The notes under the pieces were generated by a model. The model ran no database searches. It was not told the origin of the DNA and saw only the letters and a list, made by a program, of their open reading frames with translations. From a virus: a stretch of DNA of 35,024 bases. Every line of letters begins with the position of its first letter. Positions within the stretch are counted from its first letter, which is position 1. The DNA is taken from positions 1 to 35,024 of IMG/VR virus record IMGVR_UViG_3300019730_000007. One strand, written 5' to 3'. Shown piece by piece: positions 2,576 to 9,218 of this stretch. A program made the translations under genes and the position numbers.

Positions 2576-3631
2576 TTAAAAATTTGCATTCAATCCTCTG
2601 TTTTTTCTTTTTGAAAGAATATCAGGATGTTTTTTTACCAAATAATCTGTTGTTGTTTCAGCATCATCATCACCTGCAAGCAGCAAACCTCCTGGTTGCC
2701 TTCTTTGGTGGTACAAATTTATTTTTTTTGATCCAAATAGTCTGTACCCTTCTCTTTTAATATTTACACTCAAATCTTGATCTTCTCTATATCTGAGGTT
2801 TTCATCCCAATGGCAACCTATTTTATTCAAAGCAGAAACTCTTATCAAAGCAAAATTAGCAGCAACTGCATTCTTTTCATAAAAGTCTGGTTTGTTTAAA
2901 GAAAATGATTTATTATCTGTTCCAATAATTCCAACATCATCATTACTATTCATAAAGCTGACAGCAATTTCTATTGCTTTTGGCCCAACTTTTGAATCAT
3001 CATCAATAGATAATATATAATCAGGAGAATATTCCAAAGCCTTATCTGTTGCTGTTTTTCTGGCTGCACCAACTCCTTTATTCTCTTGGTGGTGGATGCA
3101 TTCTATATTTTCAAGATTAAATTCATCACAAATCTGATTAACTGAATCAGCATCTCCAAAATCATTACAAATAACAATTCCCCATTCATGATTCATTTTA
3201 CTAAAAGATTCACAGATACTATTCAAGGCAATTCTTAAAAAATCACTTCTCTCATATGTTGGAATTATAACCCAAATTCTTTTACCTGAATTGCCACCAA
3301 TATTTAGTTTGTAATTTATTTCTGGTATTATAAATTTTTTACCAACTTTTATATAGCCACAACGATTGTGCATGTTTAAGATAAAATTATCAATTTGTTT
3401 TTTAGCACAAATAAAAATGGCTTGATCTTTGGAATCAGCATATTCACAGAATCTATCAGTCAATGAACCATCTGAAAATATTAGTCTACTTTCTTGAACA
3501 ATATCATTTACATCACTTATTAATTTTTCAAAATCCAAATTGTATAGTTTTTCAAGACTAAATTCAGTTTTTGAAAAAACACAATCAAAAATAATTCTAT
3601 TTACAGTATTACCTCTATATGGATTGTCCAT
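2576..3631 (-). CDS. Family 2 glycosyltransferase (GT-A fold)
   Basis: A 351-residue protein. The start at 3631 is chosen because AGGAG lies seven bases upstream and the ATG shares one base with the stop of the prim-pol gene. The catalytic part begins after about 115 residues of unassigned N-terminal sequence: VIIPTYERSDFLRIALNSI (about 121-139), the NKGVGAARK loop, SIDDDSK (metal-binding DxD near residue 210) and WDENLRYREDQDLSV (acceptor side). The family transfers sugars from nucleotide sugars. In phages such enzymes decorate host surface sugars or hypermodified DNA bases. Position between replication and packaging genes, and absence of membrane segments, leave DNA modification open but unproven. 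Confidence 0.75.
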   Translation of the reverse strand: MDNPYRGNTVNRIIFDCVFSKTEFSLEKLYNLDFEKLISDVNDIVQESRLIFSDGSLTDRFCEYADSKDQAIFICAKKQIDNFILNMHNRCGYIKVGKKFIIPEINYKLNIGGNSGKRIWVIIPTYERSDFLRIALNSICESFSKMNHEWGIVICNDFGDADSVNQICDEFNLENIECIHHQENKGVGAARKTATDKALEYSPDYILSIDDDSKVGPKAIEIAVSFMNSNDDVGIIGTDNKSFSLNKPDFYEKNAVAANFALIRVSALNKIGCHWDENLRYREDQDLSVNIKREGYRLFGSKKINLYHQRRQPGGLLLAGDDDAETTTDYLVKKHPDILSKRKNRGLNANF

Positions 3632-6306
3632 CATATCTCTCCTATTAACATTATCTTCCAATATACAACATTACTTGTCTCTTTACTCAACATTAGGCTG
3701 TGGAAAACAACATCTACCATTGTACTAAGATATCTGCCAAGAGTTCTGGTGCTCTTTCCCTTTTCACCTAATATATCATCAATTGCTTCGCTCAATGGAG
3801 TCTCACCACTTTCAAAAGCTCCATAAGCTTTCTTGATTATATCCTTCGTTGTGAACTTACTACTTCCAAATGTTTCCTTCAATTGATTTAAAAAGTGTGC
3901 TTTTCCAAGCTTAATTGGATCTTCTTGCTGATTCTTTTTAACAGCATCATTTATATCAATCCCAGCCACTTTCAATATTGGCCTTCTTACAAACTTGTCC
4001 CAACCTTTAAAGCGGGTTGAGTCTGGTGCTTGAACTCCCTTTCCTGCTATGATAATAGATAGTATAGCAGACATAGTCTTTTTGCGGTGGTCCATAGCCC
4101 ATTGGCCAATGTCTTCACGCTTAAATACCCTCACATTTGGATCTTCCATTTTTGCATTTATATTAATTGGATAAATCCTAGTAGCAAAATCACCAACAAA
4201 CTTAATCCCATTACCAGTAAACAACCAAACAACAGAGCTTGGAACCTCAACATTTTTATTTTCACCCAATTGCCTTCCTGAAAATAGATCATTTGACATA
4301 GCCCTCGATAAGACATTACTTGTCACAGTATCTCCTTGATCAATATTATCAAATAGAACACAGCTATGCCCTTCTTGTAATATGGCCAATAAATGCTTGC
4401 CTAGCTCCACTTCATCATCTGGTAGGGTAGTAGCAGCCACAGGCCTGTTAAACACACTATAAGAGATGAGCTGGGCCATAGTAGTCTTGCCAGAAGATTG
4501 AACAGGACTTACTATGCCATATCCAGGAAAGCCACTATCACCACAGATTGTTGGTCTTTGCACTGCTGTAAGCATAGCAGATACAGCAACAGCCCTATCT
4601 AAATCAGAAGAAAATGGAAATTCAGCAAACACTTCATTGGCCAAATATTCATAAGCTTTTTCTGGGTTCATTTTTGTTATTTTTAGCTTGTGGTGAAGTA
4701 CTGCATAAAGGCCAGTTGTATCATCATATCCTGTCTTTCTTATAAGCTTCCAACTTTCATCAATAAAAGGATTCTCAACAATTCCAGTCAAAGGCTTAAA
4801 ACAAGGGCTGGTTGCTTCTCCTATAACATTCAAGAAGGTTGATGGGGGCTCAATGTCCATACCCTTTTCATTCACAAGCATAACATCTTTCTTCATACGA
4901 TATGACAAGCTGGAATATGGTTTGACATATGGTTGGATAATAGGCATCTTTGGGTAATCTTTTCCAAGTAGAGCAGATTTATGACATTGCTGTATAGTTT
5001 TAGGATGCCCCATACCAACGCTGGCAAGCCTTCCACCTATTACAAATAGCTCAGGATGATGTGAAGATTTAGCAAGCACTTTGCAAACATTTTTACACAC
5101 ATCTCCGCTGTTTTCTACTGAGAGCTCAAACTCATATATGCCTCTTGATTCTCTTTCCTTTGATTTGGCTTCTTTAGCAGCTTCAGACTGTTTTATTTTG
5201 TATTCTTCTTCAGCAATTTTTATGGTCTTTTGAATATCTCTTGCCCCATATCCAATTTTCTTCATGATCTGGTGAATTGCTGTGGTTCTATCCATGGGGG
5301 ATAGAAGTATACATTTTTTGGCATATCCTGCTTTCACAGTCAATGTGTCCTCATCTTGTATCCATTCAAGCACTTCTTCAATAGTTGGCTCATTGACAAT
5401 ATTGAAAGCACTATCAACAGATCTGTCTATATCATCAAATCTGTCTTGCCATCTTTTATCTTTAATAGTAGCACTATTCATTGCTCCTTTGAGCATAGCC
5501 TTGACAGCACTTATTGGGACTTTCTGATTGGCTAAAGATAAAGCCAGACCATTTAATGCTGTGTGATAATCTTCAGCTGTTAAAACCTTCTCAACTGCAG
5601 AGGATAAGTCAAAATCTGTTTTAGATTTGGATTGATTTTTGCTTTGGTGGGACACTTCAGGTTTCCAATCAAGATAAGGATGACCATTATCAATATATCC
5701 AATGAAATCCTCTATAGGATCAGGAGCATTGAGGCAGATCCTTTTCTGTATATAAACAGGTTGGGCAGGAAGCAAAACTGCAGGGTCAATAGCTTTTATC
5801 CCATATCCTTTTATCCACTCTCTTATATCAAGGTTATGGGCTGGCTCTTTAAGCCAGAAAAATAGGTGGCACTTTAATTGGTTACTAGTTAAGCCATATG
5901 AGCTTGAATATTGATAAATATAATCACACTCTTGAAATGGCTCTGGCAGGGCTTTTATGAACTCTTTTATAGTACCATCCCAACCATCTACATCTAAACA
6001 AAAAAGGCTCAAATTCCTATCTGTAATAGTAGGTTTGAGCCCATCTGGATGATCAGATCTTTTACGCCTGACCATTTTTTCTTTGTTTGTTCCTTCTATT
6101 ATAGAACCATGAATCATAAAACAAGGATGATCCTGATTTTCTAATAAAATGTTATAAGCTTCTTGTAAATTATTTATGGGTGCCTCAAAACCCTTGAACC
6201 ATTTTCCTGATTTATAATTTTCTTTCAGCTCCCATTCATCATCTACCAACTCAAAACTTTTTGTGGCCACTCCTTTTAGTGGCATCAGAAAATTAAAATT
6301 ATGCAA
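3631..6306 (-). CDS. Primase-polymerase / SF3 helicase fusion
   Basis: A protein of about 891 residues that probably primes and unwinds DNA at the fork. The N-terminal archaeo-eukaryotic primase-like part shows LFCLDVDGWDG (metal-binding DxD near 105-107) and KCHLFFWL (His near 147). The C-terminal helicase has a Walker A at SPVQSSGKTT (about 600), Walker B SCVLFDNID (about 652), sensor LFTGNG and an arginine finger in FATRIYPINI. TTG 6306 is proposed as start because GAGG lies six bases upstream; GTG 6312 has the same motif too close. It heads the minus-strand operon, divergent from the other replication genes. Confidence 0.8.
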   Translation of the reverse strand: MHNFNFLMPLKGVATKSFELVDDEWELKENYKSGKWFKGFEAPINNLQEAYNILLENQDHPCFMIHGSIIEGTNKEKMVRRKRSDHPDGLKPTITDRNLSLFCLDVDGWDGTIKEFIKALPEPFQECDYIYQYSSSYGLTSNQLKCHLFFWLKEPAHNLDIREWIKGYGIKAIDPAVLLPAQPVYIQKRICLNAPDPIEDFIGYIDNGHPYLDWKPEVSHQSKNQSKSKTDFDLSSAVEKVLTAEDYHTALNGLALSLANQKVPISAVKAMLKGAMNSATIKDKRWQDRFDDIDRSVDSAFNIVNEPTIEEVLEWIQDEDTLTVKAGYAKKCILLSPMDRTTAIHQIMKKIGYGARDIQKTIKIAEEEYKIKQSEAAKEAKSKERESRGIYEFELSVENSGDVCKNVCKVLAKSSHHPELFVIGGRLASVGMGHPKTIQQCHKSALLGKDYPKMPIIQPYVKPYSSLSYRMKKDVMLVNEKGMDIEPPSTFLNVIGEATSPCFKPLTGIVENPFIDESWKLIRKTGYDDTTGLYAVLHHKLKITKMNPEKAYEYLANEVFAEFPFSSDLDRAVAVSAMLTAVQRPTICGDSGFPGYGIVSPVQSSGKTTMAQLISYSVFNRPVAATTLPDDEVELGKHLLAILQEGHSCVLFDNIDQGDTVTSNVLSRAMSNDLFSGRQLGENKNVEVPSSVVWLFTGNGIKFVGDFATRIYPININAKMEDPNVRVFKREDIGQWAMDHRKKTMSAILSIIIAGKGVQAPDSTRFKGWDKFVRRPILKVAGIDINDAVKKNQQEDPIKLGKAHFLNQLKETFGSSKFTTKDIIKKAYGAFESGETPLSEAIDDILGEKGKSTRTLGRYLSTMVDVVFHSLMLSKETSNVVYWKIMLIGEI

Positions 6307-6414
6307 GCTCACCTCATTGGTTAAAATATTAATGTTTAGTTTTACTTAGCTAAATATAACCTATTCTAACCTAAAAGGAAAGTTTTTTAAATATTCCAAT
6401 AGTGGTGGATATTT

Positions 6415-6502
6415 TCAATGATTTCAGTCAGTAATGGTTTTAGAATTTCTGAGGGTAAGTATACCAACCCCATACATACACCTCTTAAAACAGAAATTAA
6501 GG
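6415..6502 (+). repeat. 88-bp dispersed repeat, copy B, in the divergent control region
   Basis: This segment aligns without gaps to 20618-20705, with 63 of 88 positions identical by hand count. The conserved blocks are CAGTAATGGTTTTA, TGAGGGTAA and CTTAAAACA. CTGAGG followed by 17 bases and ATACAT gives a possible -35/-10 pair on the plus strand, matched by TTGAGG-17-TGATAT in the other copy. It may be a phage promoter or binding site for a phage regulator. Confidence 0.6.
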
Positions 6503-6520
6503 TGTGTATTTTTGATATTG

Positions 6521-6540
6521 ATAAAATCTATAGATTTTAT
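6521..6540. promoter_or_regulatory. 20-bp perfect palindrome, candidate operator
   Basis: ATAAAATCTATAGATTTTAT is fully self-complementary. It lies between the prim-pol operon and the plus-strand early genes, just after repeat copy B, where a dimeric repressor could control both directions. No repressor gene is visible in the window. Confidence 0.45.
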
Positions 6541-6655
6541 AGATCAGAGATAAAATCCAGCAATTCATGAAAACCTAAGTGAAATGAGTACAAAATTAAT
6601 AAATTGTTGTTATAATTGAATAAAATCAGCACTAAAAATAAAATATAAAAATAAA

Positions 6656-6685
6656 TTGATATTTTTTGATATTTTTTGATATTTT
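6656..6685 (+). repeat. Three perfect tandem copies of TTGATATTTT
   Basis: The 10-bp unit is repeated exactly three times within an AT-rich stretch of about 150 bases. The period is close to one helical turn. Such arrays are common in DNA-unwinding elements of origins and in curved DNA. The core repeat copy C (ATTTCAGCTAGTTATG, 6697-6712) follows directly. Confidence 0.6.
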
Positions 6686-6696
6686 TATTCATAATC

Positions 6697-6712
6697 ATTT
6701 CAGCTAGTTATG
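6697..6712 (+). repeat. Repeat core copy C
   Basis: ATTTCAGCTAGTTATG matches the core of copies A (1800), B (6415) and D (20618). The flanks do not match. Confidence 0.45.
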
Positions 6713-6757: not shown

Positions 6758-6786
6758 TTTACTTTTGTGCCCAAATGGTTCATAAT
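6758..6786 (+). promoter_or_regulatory. Sigma70-like promoter for the structured RNA
   Basis: TTTACT (6758-6763), a 17-base spacer and CATAAT (6781-6786) match the consensus at 4/6 and 5/6 positions. Transcription would begin near 6793, exactly where the base composition changes from AT-rich to balanced and the structured RNA begins. Confidence 0.5.
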
Positions 6787-6792
6787 GAAGGT

Positions 6793-6996
6793 GAAGTTGA
6801 GGGCAGACTGGGAACAGGAGACGCTAAACCAAAACTTCAAGCCAGCAAAAAGAAATGCCATAGGCTGGACTGGTGAAACCCCAAGAACAAGTCGATGATC
6901 AGGGCAAGGCCAGAATTGAGGATGCCACTGCTACCTTATAAGGAGTGAACCTGCTAAGTAGCTCACAGGACAGTAAGCAAAATTGATTAAGTTATA
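6793..6996 (+). ncRNA. Structured non-coding RNA of unknown family, about 204 nt
   Basis: This stretch is richer in G and C than its flanks, has no credible reading frame, and holds several pairings: TGAAGTT/AACTTCA (6792-6798 with 6833-6839), CCAGC/GCTGG (6842-6846 with 6864-6868), CTGG/CCAG (6870-6873 with 6910-6913), and GCTAC/GTAGC (6930-6934 with 6958-6962). It also holds two CpGs while the 460 bases before it have none, suggesting constraint. A promoter sits just before it. A hammerhead follows whose cleavage would set the 3' end at 6996. I could not match it to a riboswitch, intron, RNase P, tmRNA or SRP RNA. It may be a free small RNA or a leader of the early operon. Confidence 0.5.
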
Positions 6997-7045
6997 TAAG
7001 GGTGTGCACCCTTACTGATGATTCAAAAATGATGAAATAACTTAA
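6987..7045 (+). ncRNA. Type III hammerhead ribozyme
   Basis: All hammerhead parts occur in order with no extra bases. Stem III 5' strand is TTAAGTTA 6987-6994, followed by T6995 and cleavage-site A6996 (triplet AUA). Stem I is a 7-bp hairpin TAAGGGT/ACCCTTA (6997-7003 with 7008-7014, loop GTGC). The core CTGATGA is 7015-7021. Stem II is short: 7023-7025 pair with 7030-7032 around an AAAA loop, with a T-T mismatch next to the core. GAAA is 7034-7037 and the stem III 3' strand TAACTTAA is 7038-7045. Predicted cleavage lies between 6996 and 6997. The next gene's ribosome site starts ten bases downstream. The weak stem II is the one departure from consensus. Confidence 0.75.
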
Positions 7046-7272
7046 CCTTTATATAGGAGATATCATGGCTACAGAAATAACAATAACAAAAGATGAGTTT
7101 AATAATAACTATATTGTTGAAATTGAAAATGGTGATTTTTCTCCTGCTTTCTGCAAAAATATAAATATGGCAAAAGAAGAAGCAGAATGGATGAGAGAGT
7201 GTTACTTTGATACTTATGGTCATGATAGTGACTGGATAGAAATAATTGAGAAATAACTTAACCTTTATATAG
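7034..7272 (+). repeat. 23-bp perfect direct repeat flanking a 63-residue gene
   Basis: The sequence GAAATAACTTAACC... through TATATAG occurs at 7034-7056 and 7250-7272. The first copy holds the GAAA box and 3' strand of hammerhead stem III; the second includes the stop codon of the gene between them. The intervening gene may have been gained or duplicated together with this segment. Confidence 0.65.
7065..7256 (+). CDS. Hypothetical small early protein, 63 residues
   Basis: ATG 7065 is preceded by AGGAG at five bases. The product is acidic, with no cysteine pairs or membrane segment (MATEITITKDEFNNNYIVEI...). Its pattern of alternating hydrophobic residues followed by an amphipathic helix suggests a small alpha/beta fold. 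It is the first gene after the hammerhead, so its transcript would carry a 5'-OH end after cleavage. No family was recognised. Confidence 0.6.
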   Translation: MATEITITKDEFNNNYIVEIENGDFSPAFCKNINMAKEEAEWMRECYFDTYGHDSDWIEIIEK

Positions 7273-7325
7273 AAGATAACCAAAAAGACCTGAGCAAGTC
7301 AATAAACTGCTTGAAAGGTTTTAAG

Positions 7326-8396: not shown

Positions 8397-9218
8397 ATGA
8401 CAACTTTAAAACTTACAAAACAGGAAATGGCAATTGCAATAATCAAAATTGATGAAGATTCAGATTATAAATCTTTGATGAGAATGTCAGAAGATGAGCT
8501 CACAAAAGAGTATTGCAAGATCACAGATATAAAAATCAGTAATCTTGCTGATAATATAATAAATGCAGTAAACCAAAAAAATGAGGAGAAAATCATGACT
8601 GAATTAAAAATGACAGAAGGTTTTGTAGTAGGTGCCAGAGATGCCAGATTGGTAATTGGAAACAACCGGAAAGCTAAACCTGCTGTTGAAGCAGTAAAAG
8701 CAGTTAAGGGTGTTGAAGCAGTTGAAGCTGTGAAAGCAGATAAAGAAAAAGGCATCAAAGCTGTTAAAGCAGTGGCAGAAGTCAAAGCTGTGAAAGCAGT
8801 TGAAGCCCAACCTGCAAAACCTGCAGAGCAGGAAGTCCATTTGGATTCTACTACTAAAGAAGTTGCTCAGGAAGTCAGAGCCAGAATGGCTGACCAAGGC
8901 TTTGAAGACAAATTTGATGGCCAACTTGTAGAGACCAAAGATGGTCGATTCAGATTGACATTTGTGGCAGAAACTGACAAACCTATCCGGGATGCTTTTA
9001 AAGCAGTTAAAAAGGCTGATGGCTATAACAAAGCTGGTCTGGATGCTGCTAAAGAAGAGAAAAAAGCAGCTGCCAAAGCTAAAAAGGCTGAAGAGAAGGC
9101 CAAAGCTGATGCTGCCAAAGAAAAAGAAAAACCAAAAGAAACTCCAAAATCTGAACCTGAAGATGACAACTCAGGAGATGATGAGGATGCCTGGCCTGGT
9201 GAAGATTTAGATGAATAA
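8397..9218 (+). CDS. Lys/Ala-rich low-complexity protein with acidic tail; in-frame internal start
   Basis: A 273-residue protein. Residues 1-66 form a helical head; about 93-140 are degenerate AVKAVEAVK repeats; about 215-250 are Lys/Ala/Glu-rich, like histone H1 tails; the end is strongly acidic with an aromatic residue (DDEDAWPGEDLDE), like the C-terminal tip of SSB proteins. A second ATG at 8595 (residue 67) has GAGGAG at seven to eight bases, so a shorter 207-residue form may also be made. It lies in the early operon before the recombination genes. A DNA-binding or SSB-like role is inference. Confidence 0.6.
   Translation: MTTLKLTKQEMAIAIIKIDEDSDYKSLMRMSEDELTKEYCKITDIKISNLADNIINAVNQKNEEKIMTELKMTEGFVVGARDARLVIGNNRKAKPAVEAVKAVKGVEAVEAVKADKEKGIKAVKAVAEVKAVKAVEAQPAKPAEQEVHLDSTTKEVAQEVRARMADQGFEDKFDGQLVETKDGRFRLTFVAETDKPIRDAFKAVKKADGYNKAGLDAAKEEKKAAAKAKKAEEKAKADAAKEKEKPKETPKSEPEDDNSGDDEDAWPGEDLDE

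Follow-up and report, generated by a model that had tools for sequence, protein, structure and literature searches.

A probable hammerhead ribozyme in the early operon of a phage

Hammerheads are known in some phages, as an earlier reading of the present locus from its sequence alone had noted, among them the haloviruses HF1 and HF2 and clusters carried by prophages (PMC3088659). The purpose of prokaryotic and phage hammerheads has been stated as an open question (PMC6155905). In HF1 and HF2, a hammerhead (HHphage) lies 13 nt ahead of the first early ORF, and the mapped 5′ end of the transcript lies no more than 3 nt from the point of cleavage (PMC3088659). In the prophage clusters, several hammerheads process polycistronic phage RNA (PMC3088659, Figure 3; compare Hammerhead_II, RF02276), and these clusters cleave both in vitro and in E. 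coli (PMC3088659). Matching the consensus is no guarantee of activity, as 4 of 18 consensus-matching hammerheads tested gave no cleavage in vitro (PMC3088659).

Here, we describe a putative hammerhead in a 35,024-nt stretch of DNA from an uncultured phage (IMG/VR record IMGVR_UViG_3300019730_000007; hereafter the window), whose replication module resembles that of Cronobacter phage Ss1 and whose tail genes, including sheath and baseplate, are myovirus-like. HF1/HF2 is the nearest precedent, as there, too, a hammerhead directly precedes the first early ORF on a polycistronic transcript of the phage; however, the core of HHphage contains insertions near C3 and its viruses infect high-salt hosts (PMC3088659), whereas the window has a consensus core except at positions 10.1/11.1 and a conserved RNA of about 200 nt upstream. 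The window differs from the prophage clusters in having the leader hammerhead only; the early operon of its relative, contig L007, is like them in carrying one type III and two type II copies. We consider it probable (about 0.83) that the early operon of the window has, within its 5′ leader, a genuine type III hammerhead, which would cut co-transcriptionally at 6996/6997 and free the leader from the early mRNA. Phage hammerheads, including those of early genes, are already known from HF1/HF2, but the leader RNA of the window matches no described family.

Anatomy of the candidate ribozyme

The 59 bases at 6987-7045 contain all elements of a type III hammerhead in order with zero spare bases, as read from the sequence:

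6987-6995, plus strand: stem III, 5′ strand, UUAAGUUAU, with 6995 as U16.1 (from the sequence and the listed pairs)
6994-6996, plus strand: cleavage triplet AUA, predicted cut at 6996/6997 (A6996/U6997), from the sequence and the NUH rule
6997-7014, plus strand: stem I, UAAGGGU (6997-7003) with ACCCUUA (7008-7014), 7 bp, loop GUGC (7004-7007)
7015-7021, plus strand: core box CUGAUGA (C3-A9), from the sequence and aligned by Rfam Hammerhead_3
7022-7033, plus strand: stem II, UCA (7023-7025) with UGA (7030-7032), 3 bp, loop AAAA
7022 and 7033, plus strand: U.U mismatch (10.1/11.1) at the base of stem II, also found in natural hammerheads (PMC3088659)
7034-7037, plus strand: core box GAAA (G12-A15.1), from the sequence
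7037-7045, plus strand: stem III, 3′ strand, AUAACUUAA, with 7037 as A15.1 (from the sequence and the listed pairs)

The arrangement is the type III circular permutation, with stems I and II closed and stem III open, the latter comprising 9 bp with the invariant U16.1-A15.1 pair among them. The sequence-only reading had given the same coordinates and predicted cleavage site, which proved correct on re-reading, and its description of elements following each other without an extra base was confirmed base for base.

The cleavage triplet is of the NUH type in both phages, AUA in the window and GUC in L007. AUA fits the NUH rule for hammerhead triplets, though it is not the best triplet. The G10.1-C11.1 pair, which is quasi-conserved and not strictly defining, is absent from the base of stem II and is replaced by U7022.U7033. 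This mismatch had been listed as an odd point of the site; it is indeed present, but it is natural and documented (PMC3088659). Because natural U10.1-U11.1 hammerheads exist and show more cleavage than those with any other mismatch at that position (PMC3088659), we do not regard it as an excluding feature. Between loop I (GUGC) and loop II (AAAA), no Watson-Crick match is seen in the sequence, Watson-Crick pairing being the only kind considered. The AUA triplet and the U.U mismatch each predict slower cleavage and, as there is also no visible Watson-Crick contact between loops I and II, the window ribozyme is expected to be active but slower.

Statistical, folding and Rfam support

An independent descriptor scan returned 6987-7045 as the one strong type III candidate in the whole window. 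To gauge chance, both strands of 1.34 Gb of simulated sequence, matched to the window in dinucleotide content, were scanned for exact boxes, a NUH triplet and correctly placed stems; a single case had 6 or more pairs in each of stems I and III, corresponding to 2.6e-5 per window, and no case had 7 or more in each. As a control, 60 scrambled versions of the core boxes were scanned against 1.41 Mb of sequence from phages and related contigs; a scrambled version found 0.017 structures on average (maximum 1), against two for the true boxes, namely the window site and its L007 counterpart. These figures bear out the earlier claim that a CUGAUGA flanked by perfectly placed stems is improbable. The folding energy of the 59-mer lies 3.0 SD below that of dinucleotide shuffles, and stems I and III are present in the minimum-energy fold of 285 nt; the unconstrained fold favours a different pairing of the core region by 1.2 kcal/mol.

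A search with the Rfam type III family had been proposed as a check. Hammerhead_3 (RF00008) is the best of 4227 Rfam families on a 71-base stretch and aligns in the correct register (18.4 bits, E 0.049, for this stretch only), but the score falls 30 bits short of the gathering score of 48.5 bits, which is a curation threshold and not a structural feature. The hammerhead is not listed in Rfam searches of 421 bases or of the whole window, and an annotation pipeline or Rfam alone would miss the site because it scores below the gathering cut-off. The window shares with RF00008 the circular permutation, the CUGAUGA and GAAA boxes, a NUH triplet and U16.1-A15.1, and differs in having U10.1-U11.1 rather than G-C, AUA rather than GUC, a 3-bp stem II, and 18.4 against 48.5 bits.

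Promoter, leader RNA and first early gene

The hammerhead is placed after an early promoter and a conserved noncoding leader, and before the ribosome-binding site of the first early gene:

6758-6786, plus strand: early promoter-like site TTTACT-N17-CATAAT, 9/12 sigma-70 consensus letters
6793-6996 (start approximate), plus strand: noncoding leader RNA of about 204 nt, which would be freed by cleavage
7055-7059, plus strand: ribosome-binding site AGGAG, with ATATAGGAGA at the corresponding place in L007
7065-7256, plus strand: first early ORF, 63 aa, no family match
7241-7278, plus strand: second copy of 7025-7062, a direct repeat of 38 bp (87%), with GAAA, the stem III 3′ strand and a ribosome-binding site

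Transcription probably starts at about 6793, since the promoter at 6758-6786 recurs in relatives, with the pattern TTTACT-N17-[CT]AT[AT][AC]T at the equivalent early leaders in L007, L053 and L050. The leader is purine-rich, with a GC content of about 48% against 25-30% around it, and the GC-richer stretch begins near 6793. The sequence-only reading had supposed a structured RNA here, a claim that stands in part: the leader is conserved in L007 at 1533-1788 (z 5.4, 0/400 shuffles), but its folding energy is no better than that of shuffles. A two-sequence consensus fold of the window and L007 leaders was likewise weak and not better than shuffles. The hairpin CCAGC..GCTGG of the window corresponds to CCGGT..ACCGG in L007, with two compensatory changes and the loop end CCATAG in both, and further motifs are shared in the same order; a structured RNA is plausible. 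Rfam scans of the window and leader gave no match at gathering score, and the leader matches no described RNA family. Other identities were tried for the leader and rejected: a protein-coding sequence (no convincing shared frame), an attenuator or terminator (no terminator-like site found) and a tRNA (none found). A freshwater-2 Rfam match in L007 was also rejected, as it reached 27 bits against a cut-off of 49.9 and overlaps the hammerhead and ribosome-binding site.

The 7241-7278 copy lacks CUGAUGA and is therefore not a ribozyme. The two repeats flank the first early ORF, and the 38-bp repeat may be a trace of how this small early gene was acquired. Further downstream, a nine-base tandem repeat at 8670-8805 encodes Lys/Glu-Ala-Val runs in the ORF at 8397-9218, and Ala/Lys-rich runs also occur in the matching ORFs of L007 and L050. 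Upstream, between the divergent primase-like gene and the early promoter, 6400-6640 is 72% identical to L007 1224-1448 (alignment z 11); this stretch adjoins a tract of 12% GC at 6600-6700, stops in L007 indicate that it is not coding, and it could be a replication origin or operator region. An ORF adjoining the primase-like gene (2576-3661, minus strand) is glycosyltransferase-like by eye.

A counterpart in a related phage

L007 (helicase 79% identical) is the closest relative found in helicase-based searches, which returned about a dozen relatives. Its arrangement of divergent primase-like gene, conserved noncoding stretch, promoter, leader RNA, hammerhead, AGGAG and first early ORF is that of the window, and its operon contains the following ribozymes:

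L007 1791-1845: type III hammerhead, AAGGU C GCAAGC UGAUCC GCUUGC CUGAUGA U GAUUC AUGGA GGAUC GAAA CCUU
L007 2150-2213 and 2708-2770: Hammerhead_II, 58.8 and 53.3 bits respectively (cut-off 37)

The type III copy is syntenic with the window site and follows the same leader. Compensatory changes in stems I and III had been named as a further check, and they are found in this one relative sequence: 8 of the 11 comparable pairs are changed on both sides, 3 are identical and none is single or broken, while CUGAUGA and GAAA are both kept. The L007 core has a GUC triplet, a G10.1-C11.1 pair after one extra U and a 5-bp stem II; the hammerhead fold is the minimum-energy fold of the site, and its loops could pair UCC with GGA in a possible loop contact. 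An extra nucleotide between A9 and G10.1 is also found in the plus-strand hammerhead of CChMVd, a viroid RNA of unrelated context, where it is an A whose change to U (A10 to U) raises trans-cleavage 3-4-fold (De la Pena and Flores 2001, as described in PMC3705267); in L007 it is a U. Each Hammerhead_II lies shortly 5′ of a ribosome-binding site, ahead of the next early genes. With one type III and two Hammerhead_II copies in L007, hammerheads recur in the early operon of this lineage. A Hammerhead_II search in the records of 18 relatives found L007 only.

Distribution among relatives

The equivalent early start is present in L053, L050, G002 (= L117) and G009 (= L123), but both the leader RNA and the hammerhead are absent there. 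Thus, among the 6 phages that could be judged, leader and hammerhead are both present in 2 and both absent in 4; this suggests that they form one module, although the number of phages is small. Because four relatives with a readable early leader have none, the hammerhead is not essential to the phage group. In the early region of L117, a tRNA-like sequence was noted (3731-3841, minus strand) with acceptor-like ends GAGGATA...TATCCTC and a T-arm-like ACAGGTTTGAATCCTGT, for which ARAGORN made no call.

A descriptor scan of a further 253 kb from the records of the same 18 relatives gave weak candidates only, with long spacers and poor stem II. Relative searches by the DUF2786 protein, the primase-like protein and the ribosome-binding-site repeat returned nothing useful, L002 being rejected as a chance match within a coding gene; a helicase search of genome contigs found only helicases about 33% identical, and DNA similarity to public phages was confined to chance-level pieces. 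Three patterns were searched in IMG/VR (CTGATGA...GAAA...TTTATATAGGAG; TAAACC...CCATAG...CCAAGAAC; CCTTATAA...ACAGGA...TAAG); the matches besides L007 look like chance, the other leader and hammerhead elements being absent.

Proposed mechanism and alternative explanations

It is envisaged that RNA polymerase starts near 6793 and transcribes the noncoding leader of about 204 nt followed by the ribozyme, whose anatomy suggests that the nascent RNA would fold and cut itself between A6996 and U6997. The 5′ product would be a discrete leader RNA of about 204 nt with a 2′,3′-cyclic phosphate end, and the 3′ product an early mRNA that has a 5′-OH, begins with the 7-bp stem I hairpin and carries its ribosome-binding site some 60 nt further on. 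A 5′-OH combined with a 5′-terminal hairpin is expected to resist 5′-monophosphate-dependent decay (RNase E). The likely gain would be a defined, 5′-protected early mRNA, the leader RNA as a separate molecule, or both.

A chance likeness in an A+T-rich leader, with a hairpin serving mRNA 5′ protection, translation control or attenuation, is very improbable. Such a reading would accommodate the weak single-genome Rfam score, the A+T-rich stems and the occurrence of the stem III 3′ half in a direct repeat that is also found without a hammerhead, but it conflicts with the simulated frequency of 2.6e-5 per window, the L007 hammerhead at the same place with compensatory stems, the strong Hammerhead_II copies in the same L007 operon and the lack of a terminator-like site. 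Decay of a ribozyme that was active in the ancestor and is intact in L007 is a better candidate, and still an unlikely one. The U.U mismatch, the AUA triplet and the lack of a loop-loop contact would have cost the site its useful activity, and stems I and III would persist as an ordinary hairpin in the leader; the better core of L007 (GUC, G10.1-C11.1, 5-bp stem II, possible loop contact) and the absence of the element from other relatives are in keeping with this. However, every invariant core letter and 16 stem I and III pairs are intact in the window, its stem III is longer than that of L007, and no mismatch at 10.1/11.1 is tolerated better than U.U (PMC3088659).

A different question is what the cut is for. 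The ribozyme could serve mainly to mature the 3′ end of a leader RNA that has a function of its own, whether as a phage regulator, as a decoy or in replication, any effect on the mRNA being secondary; this is compatible with the explanation favoured above, from which it differs only in the purpose of the cut, and we hold it as a tentative possibility. This noncoding leader, rich in GC and in purines, starts at the promoter, has a conserved counterpart in L007, and occurs together with the hammerhead in two phages while both are absent from four. Against this, the comparison comprises two sequences, with no consensus fold beating shuffles and no Rfam match, and coding genes flank the other L007 hammerheads, for which mRNA processing is the simpler account. 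A bolder version, which we regard as somewhat doubtful, is that the ribozyme releases and matures the 3′ end of a leader RNA of 200-260 nt that represents a new class of noncoding RNA in phages; it would be the first RNA transcribed in infection, would work in trans on functions of the host or the phage, and would be gained or lost as one unit among related phages.

Implications

A well-supported hammerhead with U10.1-U11.1 and AUA lies far under the Rfam cut-off, so that counts of ribozymes like this one in phage genomes are probably too low. No described family matches the conserved leader RNA that cleavage would release. A pair of phages with a hammerhead in the leader of the same operon, one of them with extra type II copies, makes a role in early-mRNA processing testable in a simple construct.
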